DNA from: an uncultured Coriobacteriaceae bacterium
Lineage (GTDB): Bacteria; Actinomycetota; Coriobacteriia; Coriobacteriales; Atopobiaceae
Reading direction: 5' to 3'
Assembly: GCA_902791035.1 (NCBI GenBank)
Contig: CADAUA010000003.1
Span: 62,001 to 126,000 of the forward strand
Length of the DNA: 64,000 bases
The notes below the pieces were generated by a model. The model was not told the origin of the DNA, made no database searches, and saw nothing but the letters and a program-made list of their open reading frames with translations. Both the position numbers and the translations under genes were made by a program. Positions 24,776 through 46,030 of this stretch are shown here, piece after piece (position 1 is the first letter of the stretch; each line of letters opens with the position of its first letter).

Positions 24776-25750
24776 ATGAGTGAGTTTCTAGACCGCATGA
24801 AGGCGGCCGCCAAGGCCAACAAGAAGACCATCGTCCTCCCCGAGGGCGAGGATCCGCGCACCATCGAGGCCGCCAAGGCCATCGTGGAGGAGGGCATCGC
24901 CAACCTGGTGATCCTGGGCGACCCCGAGCAGATCCACGTGGACGGTGTCACCGTCATCGACCCCAAGACCGCCGAGAAGCACGAGGCCTATGCGGAGAAG
25001 TTCGCCGAGCTCCGCGCCAAGAAGGGCGTCACCATCGAGCAGGCCCGCGCCCAGATGGACGACAACACCTACTTCGGCACCATGATGGTCAAGATGGGCG
25101 ACGCCGATGGCCTCGTGTCCGGCGCCTGCCACTCCACGGCCAACACCCTGCGTCCCGCCCTGCAGATCCTGAAGACCGCCCCCGGCACCAAGCTGGTCTC
25201 GGCCTTCTTCATCATGTGCACCCCTGCTACCCAGTACGGTGACGCCGGCACCCTCCTCTTTGCCGACTGCGGCCTGAACATCGACCCCAGCGCCGAGGAG
25301 CTCTCCGAGATCGCCATCGCCTCCGCCGCCTCCTGGAAGACCTACATGGGCACCGACGCCAAGGTCGCCATGCTCTCCTTCTCCACCAAGGGCTCTGCCA
25401 AGGGCGAGGTGCCCGAGAAGGTCCAGCAGGCCACCGAGCTCGCACACCAGAAGGCCCCCGAGCTGGCCCTCGACGGCGACCTGCAGCTCGACGCCGCCCT
25501 CGTGCCCGAGGTCGCGTCCCTCAAGGCCCCCGGCTCCACCGTGGCCGGCCACGCCAACGTGCTCGTTTTCCCCGACCTCGAGGCCGGCAACATCGGCTAC
25601 AAGCTGGTTCAGCGTTTCTCCGGCGCCGAGGCCTACGGCCCCATCCTGCAAGGCATCGCCAAGCCGGTCAACGACCTCAGCCGCGGCTGCTCTGCCGCCG
25701 ACATCGTGGGCGTCGTGGCCATCACCGCCGTTCAGGCCCAGATGGCGTAA
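24776..25750 (+). CDS. pta: Phosphate acetyltransferase
   Basis: 324 residues from ATG 24776, preceded by GAGAGGGAG. It converts acetyl-CoA and phosphate to acetyl phosphate, feeding AckA at 32-33 kb. It is a short, catalytic-domain-only Pta: KTIVLPEGEDPRTIEAA at the N-terminus, DADGLVSGACHSTANTLRPAL in the middle, SFSTKGSAKG, and FPDLEAGNIGYKLVQRF with NDLSRGCSAADIV near the end. pta and ackA are separated by ~6 kb and lie on opposite strands, so they are not one operon here. Confidence 0.94.
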   Translation: MSEFLDRMKAAAKANKKTIVLPEGEDPRTIEAAKAIVEEGIANLVILGDPEQIHVDGVTVIDPKTAEKHEAYAEKFAELRAKKGVTIEQARAQMDDNTYFGTMMVKMGDADGLVSGACHSTANTLRPALQILKTAPGTKLVSAFFIMCTPATQYGDAGTLLFADCGLNIDPSAEELSEIAIASAASWKTYMGTDAKVAMLSFSTKGSAKGEVPEKVQQATELAHQKAPELALDGDLQLDAALVPEVASLKAPGSTVAGHANVLVFPDLEAGNIGYKLVQRFSGAEAYGPILQGIAKPVNDLSRGCSAADIVGVVAITAVQAQMA

Positions 25751-25784
25751 GCCTGCACGCATCGCACGACTCGCATCGCACACT

Positions 25785-25816
25785 AGGGGGCGGCGCTTCG
25801 GCACCGTCCCCTTTTT
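25785..25816 (+). terminator. Rho-independent terminator after pta
   Basis: A GC-rich stem (GGGGGCGG against CCGTCCCC, one mismatch) with an apical CGCTTCGGCA is followed by TTTTT at 25812-25816. Confidence 0.8.
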
Positions 25817-25841
25817 GTGTGGCTCCGGGCCGAGCCTCCGG

Positions 25842-25955
25842 CCACGCTTAGGCGGGGTTATGCGTGATCACTCGCATCTATCTGAGCATCCGTCCACGCT
25901 TAGGTGCGGTTATACGTGATCACTCGCATGTGTCGGAGCTTTCAGCCACGCTTAG
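25842..25955. repeat. 52 bp tandem repeat (2.2 copies) between pta and rpiB
   Basis: The start CCACGCTTAG occurs at 25842, 25894 and 25946, exactly 52 bp apart. Each full unit contains a near-palindrome around CGTGATCACTCGCAT. Within the 313 bp pta-rpiB gap the array lies after the pta terminator; the rest holds only the rpiB ribosome site AAGGAGGG. Confidence 0.85.
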
Positions 25956-26063
25956 ACCAGCCGCGCGGCCCTCGGCTGATTTCCGCCGTTGCCCGCCTTC
26001 CCTCTCCACAGGCTCGCAGCTTTGCTATGTTCTTCTCAACGTAACCTCGGCCAAGGAGGGCCC

Positions 26064-26525
26064 ATGAAGATTGCCATGGCAAACGACCACGCCGGAACCG
26101 ACCTCAAGGACCAGATCAAGGAGTGGCTCGAGTCCCAGGGCTACGAGGTGGTGGACTTCGGCACGTTCGACCACGAGTCCTGCGACCTCTCGGACTTCGT
26201 CCTTCCCGCGACCTTGGCTGTGGCCAAGGGCGAGTGCGACCGCGGCATCTTCGTGGACGGCGTGGGCTACGGCTCCGCCATGATCGCGAACAAGGTCCGT
26301 GGCATCTTTGCCTGCGTCTGCCAGGATCCCGTGTGCGCCGAGCTCGCCCGCCAGCACAACGACGCGAACGTCCTCTGCATCGGCGGCAAGCTCATAGGCC
26401 CCGTCCTCGCCATGGCCGTGGTCAAGACCTGGATGACAACCGACCCGCTCACTGCCGACAAGTACGTGCGCCGGCGCGACAAGGTGGCGGCGATCGACGA
26501 GAAGTACACCCAACCGATCGCCTAA
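26064..26525 (+). CDS. rpiB: Ribose-5-phosphate isomerase B / RpiB-LacAB family isomerase
   Basis: 153 residues from ATG 26064, preceded by AAGGAGGG. Family features are MANDHAG at the N-terminus, DFGTFDHESCDLSDF, IANKVRGIFACVC, ARQHNDANVLCIGGKLIG and a C-terminal helix. It should interconvert ribose 5-phosphate and ribulose 5-phosphate or a related sugar phosphate. The catalytic-cysteine motif CGTGIG of E. coli RpiB reads DGVGYG here, with Asp at the cysteine position; a nearby acidic residue replaces Cys in some actinobacterial RpiBs, so activity is possible but substrate choice is uncertain. Its stop codon overlaps the first unit of a 51 bp repeat array. Confidence 0.87.
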   Translation: MKIAMANDHAGTDLKDQIKEWLESQGYEVVDFGTFDHESCDLSDFVLPATLAVAKGECDRGIFVDGVGYGSAMIANKVRGIFACVCQDPVCAELARQHNDANVLCIGGKLIGPVLAMAVVKTWMTTDPLTADKYVRRRDKVAAIDEKYTQPIA

Positions 26526-26750
26526 GCGTCCCGACTTTCCCGAACCGGGACACTTAGGACGGTTAGGCCCGCCTAAGCGTCCCGCCCTTCCCGAACCGGG
26601 ACGCTAGCGACGGTTAGAGCTGCCTAAGCGTCCCACCCTTCCCGAACCGGGACACTAGCGACGGTTAGGCCCGCCTAAGCGTCCCGCCCTTCCCGAACCG
26701 GGACACTTCGGACGGTTAGGCCCGCCTAAGCGTCCCGACTTTCCCGTCCC
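26521..26750. repeat. 51 bp tandem hairpin array (4.5 copies) at the end of rpiB
   Basis: CCTAAGCGTCCC begins at 26521, 26572, 26623, 26674 and 26725, a constant 51 bp spacing. Each unit holds an inverted repeat, CCTAAGcGTCCCG against CGGGACaCTTAGG, around a ~12 nt loop, with small changes between units. The first unit supplies the rpiB TAA stop. The 346 bp gap to pckA holds this array and the pckA terminator, and no gene. Confidence 0.9.
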
Positions 26751-26773
26751 GCCCCCTCCGCTGCAGACGCAAA

Positions 26774-26828
26774 GGCGCCCGCCCCTCCCCCAGGCCTTGC
26801 CGCATGGCCAGAGAGAAGGACGGGCGCC
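26774..26828 (-). terminator. Terminator-like hairpin after pckA
   Basis: GGCGCCCG (26774-26781) pairs with CGGGCGCC (26821-26828), with an inner GGCC/GGCC stem. On the minus strand TTTGCGT follows. Confidence 0.6.
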
Positions 26829-26871
26829 GCATCTCTGCAGCTAGAACCCCGGCGCTACTTTGTCCGCAACC

Positions 26872-28503
26872 CTATCCCAGTGGGTGCGGGCCGGCGGCAC
26901 GGACCTCCGGGCTCATGGTCTGGAGGCGCTTCTCGGCGTTCTCCTCGAACATGCGCGCGAGCTTCTCGGCGGTCTTGTCGTACTCGGCACGGTCGGCCCA
27001 GGTGTTGCGGGCGTTCAGCAGCTCGGAAGGCACGCCCGGGCACGCGGTGGGCACATCGAGGTTGAAGCGCTCGTCATGCACGAAGTCGCAGTCGTCGATG
27101 AGGCCGGACTGGGCCGCCTCCACCATCTTGCGCGTGTAGGCGAGCTTGATGCGGCTGCCCACGCCATAGGGGCCGCCGGACCAGCCGGTGTTGATCAGGT
27201 AGACGCGGGTGCCACCCTTCTCGATGCGCTCGCCCAGCATCTGGGCGTAGATGTTGGGGTCGAGCGGCATGAAGGGCTCGCCGAAGAGGCTGGAGAAGGT
27301 GGGCGTGGGCTCCTTGATGCCGCGCTCGGTACCGGCGACCTTGCTCGTGAAGCCCGTCATGAAGTGGTACATGGCGGCGTTGTTGTCGAGCTTGGAGATG
27401 GGCGGCAGCACACCGAAGGCGTCCGCCGTGAGGAAGATCACGACATCGGGCGTGCGCTTTGCCTTGCCCGTGGCCACGGCGTTGCTGATGTACTCCACCG
27501 GGTAGGCGCAGCGGCCGTTCTCCGTGAGGGCGTCGTCGTCGTAGTCGGCCACGCGGGTCCTCTCGTCAAGCACGACGTTCTCCACCACGGAGCCGAAGCG
27601 TATGGCATCCCAGATCTGGGGCTCGGTCTCGTGCTTGATGCGGATGGTCTTGGCATAGCAGCCGCCCTCGATGTTGAAGACGTCCTCGTCGGACCAGCCG
27701 TGCTCGTCGTCGCCGATGAGCATGCGGTCCTCGGCGGCCGAGAGCGTGGTCTTGCCGGTGCCCGAGAGGCCAAAGAAGACCGTGGTGCCGTGGCTGCGCG
27801 GGTTCATGTTGCAGGAGCAGTGCATGGTAAGGACGTTGTTCTCGGTGGGCAGCAGGTAGTTCATGACCGAGAAGATCGACTTCTTTATCTCGCCCGAGTA
27901 CTGCGTGCCCACGACCAGGATCTCGCGACGGCGGAAGTTGATAAGGACCGCTGCCTCGGAGTTCGTGTTGTGGATCGCCGGGTCGAGCTTGAGGCGCGGG
28001 GCCGCCATGACCACGAAGTCCGCCTGGCCGAAGTCCAGGAGCTCGCGGTCCGTGGGACGCACCAGCATCTGGCGCATGAAGAGGGCCTGGCTGGCCAGCT
28101 CGCAGATGCCCAAGATCTTGCGCGAGTAGCGGCGGTCGGCACCGGCCAGCGCGTGCACCAGGAAGAGCCTGCGCTCGGAGAGGTAGCTGATGACCTCCTC
28201 GCGGACGCGCATGTAGTTCTCCTCGGAGAAGGGCACGTTGACGTTGCCCCACGCGATGCGATCGTGCACGTCGGGCGTGTCCACGATAAAGCGGTCATGC
28301 GGCGAGCGGCCCGTGTACTTTCCCGTGGTCACCGAGAGGGCACCGGTGCTGGTGAGCACACCCTCACCGCGCGAGACGGCCGTCTCCACGAGCACGGCAG
28401 GAGACGCGTCGATGACAGTCCTGTCGTCGGTATGGTGGATTCCGTACTTCTTGAGCTCCTCGACGATCACTGGAACCTCCGATCGCTTAGGGCGCAGGTT
28501 CAC
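26872..28503 (-). CDS. pckA: Phosphoenolpyruvate carboxykinase (ATP)
   Basis: 543 residues from a GTG start at 28503 preceded by GAGAAGG. It interconverts oxaloacetate plus ATP and PEP plus CO2 plus ADP. The kinase-1a loop FFGLSGTGKTTLSA near 255 and IGDDEHGWSDEDVFNIEGGCYAKTI just after it define the ATP-dependent class; RSPHDRFIVD lies near the N-terminus. In fermenters of this type the enzyme often runs toward oxaloacetate, but direction cannot be read from sequence. It is a single gene divergent from the aldose epimerase gene. Confidence 0.95.
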   Translation of the reverse strand: MNLRPKRSEVPVIVEELKKYGIHHTDDRTVIDASPAVLVETAVSRGEGVLTSTGALSVTTGKYTGRSPHDRFIVDTPDVHDRIAWGNVNVPFSEENYMRVREEVISYLSERRLFLVHALAGADRRYSRKILGICELASQALFMRQMLVRPTDRELLDFGQADFVVMAAPRLKLDPAIHNTNSEAAVLINFRRREILVVGTQYSGEIKKSIFSVMNYLLPTENNVLTMHCSCNMNPRSHGTTVFFGLSGTGKTTLSAAEDRMLIGDDEHGWSDEDVFNIEGGCYAKTIRIKHETEPQIWDAIRFGSVVENVVLDERTRVADYDDDALTENGRCAYPVEYISNAVATGKAKRTPDVVIFLTADAFGVLPPISKLDNNAAMYHFMTGFTSKVAGTERGIKEPTPTFSSLFGEPFMPLDPNIYAQMLGERIEKGGTRVYLINTGWSGGPYGVGSRIKLAYTRKMVEAAQSGLIDDCDFVHDERFNLDVPTACPGVPSELLNARNTWADRAEYDKTAEKLARMFEENAEKRLQTMSPEVRAAGPHPLG

Positions 28504-43581: not shown

Positions 43582-45552
43582 CTACCCATTCACCGCCCAG
43601 CTTGGTCTCCCCTCGGTGGGAAAGTCGGTGTCGAACACCATATATCTGAGGTCAGCCTGGGACACGTCCCAGCCCTCGAGCGCGGTCGCATCCTTGAGGG
43701 ATTTGCAGCCATAAAACATACCCCCGATATATACCACGTGCGAGGTGTCCCAGCCCGCCAGGGGCGAGACGTCAGTAAGGGATGTGCAGTCTTCGAACAT
43801 GCCGGCGATGTTGGTCACAGCCGAGATGTCCCAGCTCGCAAGGGGCGAGATATCAGTGAGGGATGTGCAGCCGTCGAACATGATGGACATGTTGGTAACG
43901 TGCGAGGTGTCCCAGCCCGCAAGGGGCGAGAGATCAGTGAGGGATGCGCAGCCGTAGAACATGCTGGACATGTTGGTAACGTGCGAGGTGTCCCAGCCCG
44001 CAAGGGGCGAGAGATCAGTGAGGGACGCCCAGCCTTGGAACATGCCGGACATGTTAGTAACATTCGAGGTGTCCCAGCCCGCAAGGGGCGATAGGTCGCC
44101 GCGTCTCCCGCCGTTAGTGACGAACATATGGCCCATGTTGATCACGTGCGAGGTGTCCCAGCCCGCAAGGGGCGAGAGGTCGACGAGGGACGTGCAGCCG
44201 CCGAACATGTCCTCCATGTTGGTCACAGCCGTGGTGTCCCAGCCCGCCAGGGCGGAGACATCCGTGAGATGCGTGAAGCCTGCGAAGAGCTCTGATGAGT
44301 CTGGTGCCATGTGGATAGTGCCCGAGCTCTCCACTTTGGTCACTCCGGACTTGTCGAAGCTAGCCCACCAGTTGTCTGTGCCATCAGGAATCTCGATGGA
44401 GGTCAGCGTGCCCTCGCCGCGCCAAGAGTCAACGGGCCTCACGTAGAGAGTATTGTCCGCGATCCGCCACTCGCAGGTGCCCCAGACGGTCCAGGTCCCG
44501 GCGTCGTCCGCGAAGGGACCGGGGTCGGAGGGGGTCCCGGGATCGGCCGTGAGGTGGTCCCACTCAGCCTCGCTCACGGCGGCGGGGCCGCCGATCACGT
44601 GGCCGGAGGTGACGCGGGAGTCCTGGTAGCCGCTGTACACCGCGTCCACGGCCTGCGTCTGGCCCGGGTTCATGATGGCGAGGACGGAGTCGAAGGCGCC
44701 GGCGAGGGGCGCGGCGCAGAGGGCGTCCCAGTAGCCGTCGCCCGTGGCCACGCACATGTGGGAGGTGGTCATGCCCTCGCCGAGCTCCCACTTGGCTATC
44801 TCCGCGGAGGTCTTGACGGCGTTCTCGCCGGCGAGGCGCACGACCTGCTTGCCGGCGAGCTGGCCCTCGACCTCGCCCGAGACGGCCGCGGTGCCCCCCA
44901 CGATCACGACGCGGTCGAACCCCTGGACGTCAGCCAGGGTGGCGTCGTCCAGCATGTTGCGGCCGTCCGTGAGGAAGATCGGGGCGTGCCTGGCCCAGGC
45001 GTAGGGGGCTATGGACAGGGCGTCCCAGTAGCCCGTCCAGGTGGCCACGACGCAGGTGTCGCCCCAGCCGCCCCTGGACTCGTAGGCCTCGCGTGCCGTG
45101 TCGCGCGCGGTGTCTCCGTAGACGCGGGTGACCTCGCACTTCTCTCCGCACGTGGCACGCACCTCGTCCAGCACTAAGTCGGCGACAGCCGCCGGGCCGC
45201 CCAGCACGACCACCCTGCTCGGGGCCAGCCTCTCGAGCTGCTCGGCCGTCTCGTCGCGCAGGTACGACGTCGGCGTGATCAGCACGGGTGCGCCGTCGAG
45301 TCCCGCCAGGCCGGAGCCCGCGAGGGCGTCCCAGTAGCCGTCGCCCGTGGCCAGGCAGACCGTCCCACCGCGCCCGTCCGGGAAGGCGCCGTCCGCCTCG
45401 AGGACCCTCTCCATCGTCCCGTACGCGTTCTGCCCCCAGAGCCTGTCCCAGCTCGCGCCCTCAGCGAGCGCCGCCCTTGGCGACGCCGCCACGAGCACCG
45501 CCAGCGCGAGCGCCACGAGCGCCCTCAGCCGACTCCCGTACCCCTTGCCCAT
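43582..45552 (-). CDS. CWB2 surface protein with DUF285/BspA-type leucine-rich repeats
   Basis: 656 residues from ATG 45552 (a GTG at 45567 is also in frame, but GGAGG lies between them). A Sec signal peptide (residues ~1-31, ending ALAEG) is followed by three CWB2 units (~35-330: WGQNAYGTMERV, GYWDALAGSG, VVVLGGPAAV and repeats). A linker leads to ~8 tandem 27-residue repeats (~430-640) of the form LSPLAGWDTSHVTNM then MFYGCASLTD, the surface protein repeat family TIGR02167/DUF285. Repeat 2 has VTNGGRRGD in place of the GGCTSL core. There is no LPxTG signal; CWB2 provides wall attachment. A role in adhesion is inferred from the family. See the poly-G tract upstream. Confidence 0.88.
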   Translation of the reverse strand: MGKGYGSRLRALVALALAVLVAASPRAALAEGASWDRLWGQNAYGTMERVLEADGAFPDGRGGTVCLATGDGYWDALAGSGLAGLDGAPVLITPTSYLRDETAEQLERLAPSRVVVLGGPAAVADLVLDEVRATCGEKCEVTRVYGDTARDTAREAYESRGGWGDTCVVATWTGYWDALSIAPYAWARHAPIFLTDGRNMLDDATLADVQGFDRVVIVGGTAAVSGEVEGQLAGKQVVRLAGENAVKTSAEIAKWELGEGMTTSHMCVATGDGYWDALCAAPLAGAFDSVLAIMNPGQTQAVDAVYSGYQDSRVTSGHVIGGPAAVSEAEWDHLTADPGTPSDPGPFADDAGTWTVWGTCEWRIADNTLYVRPVDSWRGEGTLTSIEIPDGTDNWWASFDKSGVTKVESSGTIHMAPDSSELFAGFTHLTDVSALAGWDTTAVTNMEDMFGGCTSLVDLSPLAGWDTSHVINMGHMFVTNGGRRGDLSPLAGWDTSNVTNMSGMFQGWASLTDLSPLAGWDTSHVTNMSSMFYGCASLTDLSPLAGWDTSHVTNMSIMFDGCTSLTDISPLASWDISAVTNIAGMFEDCTSLTDVSPLAGWDTSHVVYIGGMFYGCKSLKDATALEGWDVSQADLRYMVFDTDFPTEGRPSWAVNG

Positions 45553-45670: not shown

Positions 45671-45778
45671 CGGTAGGCAGTGCAGGGGCGGGCGGGGCAC
45701 CACGCCCCCGTACCCCACTGGCACTCTGGTAGCCATACCCTTCAGACCACTGATTGACCTGAGCTAGCATGCCGCGGT

Positions 45779-46030
45779 GTACTGACTCCGCACGTTGGGC
45801 GGGAATATCCGCCACAATCCCCAACCCCAGTACGGTCATGGCGGTGTTTGCCCAGCTAACAGCTCAGGGCGGCGTACTGACTCCGCACGCTGGGAGGGAA
45901 TATCCGCCACAATCCGCAACCCCGGAACGGTCCTAGCGGCATAACCGCAGGTAACGAAGTCAGGCGTCGCACTGACTTCGCCCACCCGACGGCAAGTATC
46001 GCCGGAACTCCTAACCTCAGTACGGTGCCC
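45779..46030. repeat. 95 bp tandem repeat (2.7 copies)
   Basis: GTACTGACTCCGCACG begins at 45779 and 45874, and a diverged GCACTGACTTCGCCCA at 45969, each 95 bp apart. Units share GGGAATATCCGCCACAATCC, then AACCCC(A/G)G and ACGGTC. The third copy is weaker. The 659 bp gap 45553-46211 holds C12, the G4 motif, this array and a terminator, and no convincing gene. Confidence 0.85.

Follow-up and report, generated by a model that had tools for sequence, protein, structure and literature searches.

For BIMEs, a mode of action that involves gyrase and further bound proteins is commonly assumed. Mycobacterial MIRU/VNTR loci are dispersed tandem units of ca. 50–100 bp that can overlap stop codons; Rickettsia palindromic elements (RPEs) insert inside genes and are single larger elements, not 51-bp arrays. 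Integron attC sites carry a GTT/AAC core triplet in both outer boxes, and the DtxR/IdeR box has a spacing of N1. BIMEs are defined (PMC2817692) by short modules, regular spacing and alternating orientation. CGTC-tagged REPs, Neisseria dRS3 included, have 8–9 bp stems and 4–5 bp loops, rarely cluster (PMC3733652, Table 1), and are reported in that paper, where RPEs are also named, to lack a dedicated transposase. For Pseudomonas fluorescens SBW25, PMC3116915 gives 61% of the REPs as doublets and 18% as singlets; most REPINs are single, 16 ordered tandem clusters of near-identical units lie beside RAYT genes, and a second mechanism of formation and special roles were suggested for these clusters. 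In the main text of a 2025 REP survey (PMC12306157), a word search gave no occurrence of Atopob-, Olsenella or Coriobacter-; among the best-ranked open-licence literature matches (subscription papers lying mostly outside this scope) there was no description of arrays of the present kind in Coriobacteria. The role of BIME-type repeats, and why bacteria keep them, is the question to which the arrays reported here speak.

Window array: The DNA analysed (the window; 64,000 nucleotides of an uncultured Coriobacteriaceae bacterium) contains a class-1 array of period 51 bp and 4.5 units at 26519–26746 (TRF: the same limits, period 51, 4.5 copies, 89% matches), located between the convergent genes rpiB (LacAB_rpiB, PF02502; 26064–26525, plus strand) and pckA (PEPCK_ATP, PF01293; 26872–28470, minus strand, start as given by the codon-usage gene caller). 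It is best read as one copy of a lineage-specific, BIME-like binding array with no known transposase, a reading given about an even chance. The left edge is a lone right half of dyad A (CTAAGCG, 26522–26528); dyad B (TCCCG-N3-CGGGA) follows at 26538–26550, 26589–26601, 26640–26652 and 26691–26703, alternating with dyad A (CGGTTAG-N6-CTAAGCG) at 26560–26579, 26611–26630, 26662–26681 and 26713–26732, and the right edge is a lone left half of dyad B (TCCCG, 26742–26746). The exact 51 bp spacing given in the first-pass annotation was reproduced: CCTAAGCG begins at 26521, 26572, 26623, 26674 and 26725, in steps of exactly 51 bp, and is absent elsewhere from the plus strand of the 64 kb window. The A-B unit with up to 3 mismatches gave 8 matches in the window vs 0 in 100 shuffles. 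A stem of about 13 bp, assigned by the same annotation to each unit, was not recovered as such: 12, 10, 8, 11 and 3 of the 13 positions form Watson–Crick pairs in the successive units, the fifth of which is truncated; this 13-bp stem is confined to the window array, and it is the two shorter dyads that recur throughout the genome. Upstream of rpiB a class-2 array was located at 25832–25955, with 2.4 units of period 52 bp; two of these units have the degenerate A dyad CGCTTAG-N6-TTATRCG, and the second motif is a different one. Two other repeats lie in the window: a 95-bp repeat at 45774–45981 (2.2 copies, TRF) and an 81-bp coding repeat at 43739–44268, the minus strand of which reads NMSGMF..GCxSLTDLSPLAGWDTS-type repeats; as a guess, the latter is of surface-protein type.

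The array supplies the stop codon of rpiB, as had been noted: TAA (26523–26525) is inside the first CTAAGCG. Because the typical array grammar presents read-through with TAA or TAG in two of the three frames, the stop codon is taken as an incidental by-product of array location. At the locus of a relative (L053) the rpiB frame ends at the same codon position (TQPLK-stop vs TQPIA-stop; compared by eye). Among named RpiB proteins, the closest (89%) comes from an uncultured Olsenella. Another relative (L055) has a syntenic convergent rpiB–pckA pair, and at that locus no A dyad was detected with up to 1 mismatch allowed.

Dispersed family: The first-pass annotation had proposed a search of the genome for the 51 bp unit; with the window array as query, 51 matches were obtained in the genome (2.69 Mb, 37 contigs), spread over many contigs and both strands. 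Seventeen stretches were fetched around these matches, and array boundaries were drawn by eye from TRF output and motif display. At least 26 class-1 arrays are present (25 displayed, the window array included, and a 26th in L227), the number being a minimum since arrays were located via similarity to the window array and unlike relatives may escape. The class-1 grammar is dyad A CGSTTAG-N6-CTAASCG, 9 bp, dyad B TCCCG-N3-CGGGA, 9 bp, 51 bp in total; it is kept despite many substitutions in some arrays (e.g., L010 at 3371 and L011). Centres of A and B are 25.5 bp apart in 116 cases from B to A and in 111 from A to B; 110 of the 125 A–A steps in the 26 arrays measure 51 bp, and those deviating by more than 2 bp (26, 31, 61, 62, 62, 64 and 89 bp) are few for a helical-phasing test. 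The A-9-B pattern (up to 3 mismatches, both strands together) gave 252 matches in the genome vs 0 for the reversed control. Strict A dyads number 96 in the genome, 86 of them in the 304 kb of array stretches analysed. Occurrences inside/outside arrays in these 304 kb, which were selected for array content yet reach kilobases past the arrays, were as follows: exact A, 94/0; exact B10, 77/0; exact half-sites H1 (GGACGSTTAG), 117/0, and H2 (CCCGCTTAG), 72/0; A with 1 mismatch, 122/4, and with 2 mismatches, 132/12, several of the mismatched A sites outside the listed arrays belonging to class-2 arrays; B with two mismatches, 119/10. Class-2 arrays (period 52, degenerate A dyad) were found, apart from that upstream of rpiB, at L016 4840–4952, in L027, at L018 9584–9655 and at L009 12578–12650; in L016 and L030 class 2 runs directly into class 1.

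An array can equally be written as a 21-bp module, CTAASCG-N9-TCCCG, whose orientation strictly alternates and whose copies are separated by linkers of 6 bp and 3 bp (21 + 3 + 21 + 6 = 51). Lone half-dyads form 37 of the 52 array ends (21.4 expected for random ends, p = 1.5e-5), and 32 of the 52 when an exact B is required (p = 0.004); arrays thus end mostly inside a dyad, and the 21-bp module is therefore an apt description. The A half-site has two outer forms, H1 with GA before CGSTTAG and H2 with CC before CGCTTAG. Typing on both sides was possible for 104 of 151 units: 85 were mixed (60 + 25), 17 were H1–H1 and 2 were H2–H2.

Constraint on the arms: The strongest single result is the conservation of the arms amid drift of the units. 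Neighbouring units (51 bp offset) differ in 4.9% of comparisons in the arms, a figure that leaves out the degenerate third position (17.7%), and in 31.4% in linkers and spacers; the arms are the less variable part in 24 of 24 testable arrays, the 25th having too few columns. Were pairing selected, a change in one arm should bring a compensating change in the other; invariant pairs are uninformative on pairing, either way. With one unit taken per array, Watson–Crick pairing at the arm pairs was at most 1 standard deviation above the shuffled expectation. Between neighbouring units the seven A pairs changed on one side in 106 cases and on both sides in 11, and Watson–Crick pairing was kept in none of these 11; the five B pairs showed 109 single and 22 double changes, 7 of the 22 keeping it, and this is the part of the covariation test that leans to hairpins. 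Pairing at the degenerate S position was 0.57 vs 0.62 shuffled; among 148 dyads the position reads C-G in 90, G-G in 38, C-C in 17 and G-C in 1, so that G.G or C.C stand opposed in 55 of the 148 A dyads. The A flanks pair less than shuffled ones (0.19 vs 0.39 at −1) and the outer N6 pair of dyad A also pairs below shuffled, as though longer palindromes were avoided. The B arm TCCC lacks a pairing partner inside H1 modules and is nevertheless intact in 47 of 50 of them, as against 64 of 72 H2 modules.

Half-sites conserved as sequence and largely independent of one another, as looked for in a protein-binding array, were thus found. Since the arm pairs show little or no covariation, the conservation of the arms as sequence would favour recognition of half-sites on duplex DNA over hairpins. 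Both dyads are palindromic, however, and hairpin formation is possible. Array RNA folds far better than shuffles (z = −6.0 for the plus strand, −4.3 for the minus strand); in G336, a genome from a different family of the order, two longer A hairpins stay paired though their outer bases differ, which looks like hairpin conservation, and in genus g50 flank position −1 pairs above shuffled (0.55 vs 0.39). Because the G336 hairpins, the g50 flank pairing and the RNA folding count against recognition on the duplex, that reading is given about an even chance.

Proposed explanation: The arms would be half-sites that one or more sequence-specific proteins, acting as dimers, recognise in duplex DNA. 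Each array would then offer a platform of many such sites where transcription units end, with a possible effect on supercoiling, chromosome structure or read-through. Units may have reached new sites by a putative mobilising activity and then expanded locally by tandem duplication; such local expansion after arrival would explain the array-specific variants. We infer a binding protein for the arrays; none was found. Protein binding, minisatellite-like character and a structure at mRNA 3' ends had been offered side by side by the first-pass annotation: the first is favoured, on arms conserved as sequence, half-site types mixed within units and paired positions that covary little or not at all; the other two fare as described below.

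Possible selfish element of REP type: The modules may instead be recognised and moved as single strands by a transposase, whether lost, unrecognised or acting in trans, with arms kept for recognition by that transposase and not for a host function; this alternative is possible, though on the whole doubtful. Alternating inverted modules as in BIMEs and array ends at module ends agree with it, as does the reported lack of a dedicated transposase for the CGTC-tagged REPs too (PMC3733652). An array has moreover been inserted in moaA, and none is present at the syntenic rpiB–pckA locus of L055. Further in its favour, the genome has five IS200-like Y1_Tnp genes (Pfam; L133–L137, on contigs C31, C23, C17, C4 and C1), each with a different short repeat common to both flanks; 14-mers are shared between the flanks in all five, L133 having a single shared 14-mer outside the open frame. 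The five loci with their own flank repeats look like five parallel RAYT–REP systems. A link of the arrays to a Y1_Tnp transposase was rejected: within flanks of 1.0–1.5 kb, the A or B dyad was found at 0 of the 5 own loci and the A dyad at 0 of the 11 g50 loci, and genome G136 has A dyads yet no Y1_Tnp match (the search was by PF01797, which a gene outside the assembly or missed by that profile would escape). Against movement of this type stand also the count of 0 exact A sites outside arrays in 304 kb, vs 61% doublets and 18% singlets among the SBW25 REPs (PMC3116915), and the scant or missing covariation of the arms; a stem kept by compensatory change, a feature of RAYT REPs and BIMEs, was not seen (A 0/11, B 7/22).

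Array inside moaA: A moaA homologue (L019 6288–7655, minus strand; Radical_SAM and Mob_synth_C by Pfam) has an in-frame array insert that encodes five 17-residue repeats and amounts to an insertion experiment performed by nature. In an alignment with S. aureus MoaA, positions 220 and 237 of that protein match residues 244 and 359 of the query, which corresponds to an insert of ca. 98 residues; the third aligned piece is weak alone (i-Evalue 0.036), but Pfam Mob_synth_C resumes at residue 358. The homologue also has a glycine-rich unaligned stretch near residues 137–184. Where the usual unit has an in-frame TAG, the moaA units have a tyrosine codon (by eye). These units carry the arm variant GTAAGCG, which is not attributable to coding constraint alone because it also occurs in L020 outside a confident gene. 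A coding function for the arrays was considered, 51 being a multiple of 3 and many arrays being open in one frame, and was rejected: no array but that of moaA was seen within a confidently called gene, and 3 does not divide the periods 52, 61 and 73.

Placement and the possibility of a 3'-end RNA element: Gene context was obtained with our own codon-usage script, some calls of which are low-scoring, the gap in L012 (2271 bp) clearly missing a gene. With this proviso, of the 24 arrays not in moaA, 9 occupy convergent gaps, 11 tandem gaps and 4 divergent ones; the convergent class is over-represented (9 of 24 arrays vs 12 of 102 other gaps of at least 100 bp in the same stretches, p = 0.005). 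The median distance of arrays to gene 3' ends is 52 bp (n = 29), as against 203 bp for 5' ends (n = 19; p = 3.5e-6); 13 of the 29 three-prime ends and 0 of the 19 five-prime ends have an array within 35 bp. The neighbours are ordinary genes (e.g., those of a sigma-70 factor, seryl-tRNA synthetase, RecO and Dus); among the flanking proteins scanned with Pfam (30 of 33, of which 28 matched, plus pckA), none belonged to a transposase, integrase or phage family. Transcribed hairpins that stop transcription in both directions, or that protect mRNA 3' ends, would suit this proximity to 3' ends, the enrichment in convergent gaps, the RNA folding and the 7 of 22 double changes in dyad B that keep pairing. 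Such an RNA element is nevertheless improbable, and the mRNA 3' structure of the first-pass annotation is the less favoured of its suggestions that stand: 4 of the 24 arrays are in divergent gaps and one more is inside coding sequence; terminator-like sites (G+C-rich stem followed by a T run) number 0 in window positions 25700–27000; pairing is not the best-conserved feature, the A pairs showing G.G or C.C opposition in over a third of dyads and no compensation. At the gathering score Rfam gave no match in window positions 25700–26900 nor at four sample loci, and below that score three weak matches at the window array.

A neutral family of minisatellites, generated by slippage and functionless, is very unlikely: arrays are more uniform internally (68–100% matches in the 51-bp TRF rows) than other arrays are to the window array (65–84%), as slippage would have it, but the arms vary 6-fold less than the rest in all 24 testable arrays, which contradicts neutrality barring a conversion process that acts on the arms alone, and one grammar holds across 26 loci with ends at module ends. 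An assembly artefact by collapse or expansion of repeats is hardly credible for 26 arrays of different sequence and place, one of them in frame inside moaA, although in a genome of 37 contigs the unit numbers in arrays may be wrong.

Taxonomic range: In the other 394 genomes searched within the order the A-B pattern does not occur, except for one 3-mismatch match in G130. The strict A dyad was found in 9 of 140 genomes of the family, namely the own genome (96) and all 8 sampled species of genus g50 (2 to 6 each), and in 2 of the remaining 255 genomes of the order: G276 with one site, a count to be read beside the reversed-pattern control, where several genomes likewise have a single site, and G336, whose two CGCTTAG-N6-CTAAGCG dyads (L229 282–427) lie within longer stems in two tandem 73-bp units. 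In g50 the degenerate pattern gave 64 sites in 32 loci, 11 of which have a single site; the 30 steps that do not exceed 130 bp comprise 20 of 61 bp, 5 of 60, 62 or 63 bp and 5 of 72 to 86 bp, and the motifs beside the dyads are other than in the own genome. A is thus the conserved part, whereas period and second motif depend on the lineage. The A–A steps, 51–52 bp in the own genome, mostly 61–62 bp in the second genus and 73 bp in one genome of another family, are roughly whole helical turns. A phage or plasmid origin was rejected: plasmid (72,556) and phage (50,697) records gave no match, and viral contigs no exact A-B unit. With a looser two-dyad pattern, two IMG/VR viral contigs showed clusters of five and six TTAG-N6-CTAA dyads (L231 11747–11857; L232 347–501) at a spacing of ca. 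19–45 bp; the clusters are without the array grammar, a gene beside one of them reads as terminase (by eye), and they may serve as a lead only.

A wider proposal is put forward tentatively and is more apt to fail than to hold. According to it, a putative dimeric DNA-binding protein, common to at least two genera of the family, would read CGSTTAG-N6-CTAASCG dyads set in regular arrays, with a lineage-specific second dyad between them; the arrays would organise the ends of transcription units, the insertion in moaA would show continuing spread, and the whole would constitute a previously undescribed genome-wide platform.

Comparison with known systems: Two further candidates were rejected. For an integron attC array the third half-site position is C in 80% and G in 19%, which does not conform to the core-triplet rule; the DtxR/IdeR box resembles the half-site GGTTAG, but its spacing is N1 vs N6 here. 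MIRU/VNTR loci, which are direct repeats not known to have a two-dyad grammar, are set apart by description and not by sequence comparison. With RPEs the present family has in common a palindromic repeat in frame within conserved coding sequence, here moaA. Like BIMEs of E. coli and other bacteria, it consists of alternating modules that are intergenic, present at many loci and near gene 3' ends; unlike them, it has modules of 21 bp, hairpins that are not maintained, no linked RAYT, no exact single copies outside arrays in 304 kb and no GTAG tag seen here, a distinction likewise drawn by description and not by sequence comparison. Three features of the RAYT–REP family failed to appear: a linked transposase, a dominance of single copies or doublets, and a compensated stem. 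The CGTC-tagged REPs are likewise reported to lack a dedicated transposase, and the H1 half-site partly reads CGTCC on the other strand; stem and loop size set them apart, the B stem here being short (TCCCG/CGGGA) and its loop 3 bp long, and in the present family the tag does not adjoin the stem and the units cluster as a rule. To the question of why such repeats are kept, the family offers a rigid two-dyad grammar, a measured half-site constraint, occurrence in arrays and no linked transposase found. The nearest ordered arrays in the literature surveyed are the REPIN clusters of SBW25 (PMC3116915), which share with the present arrays highly ordered, tandem, near-identical units; unlike those clusters, the present arrays are not RAYT-linked and are the rule.
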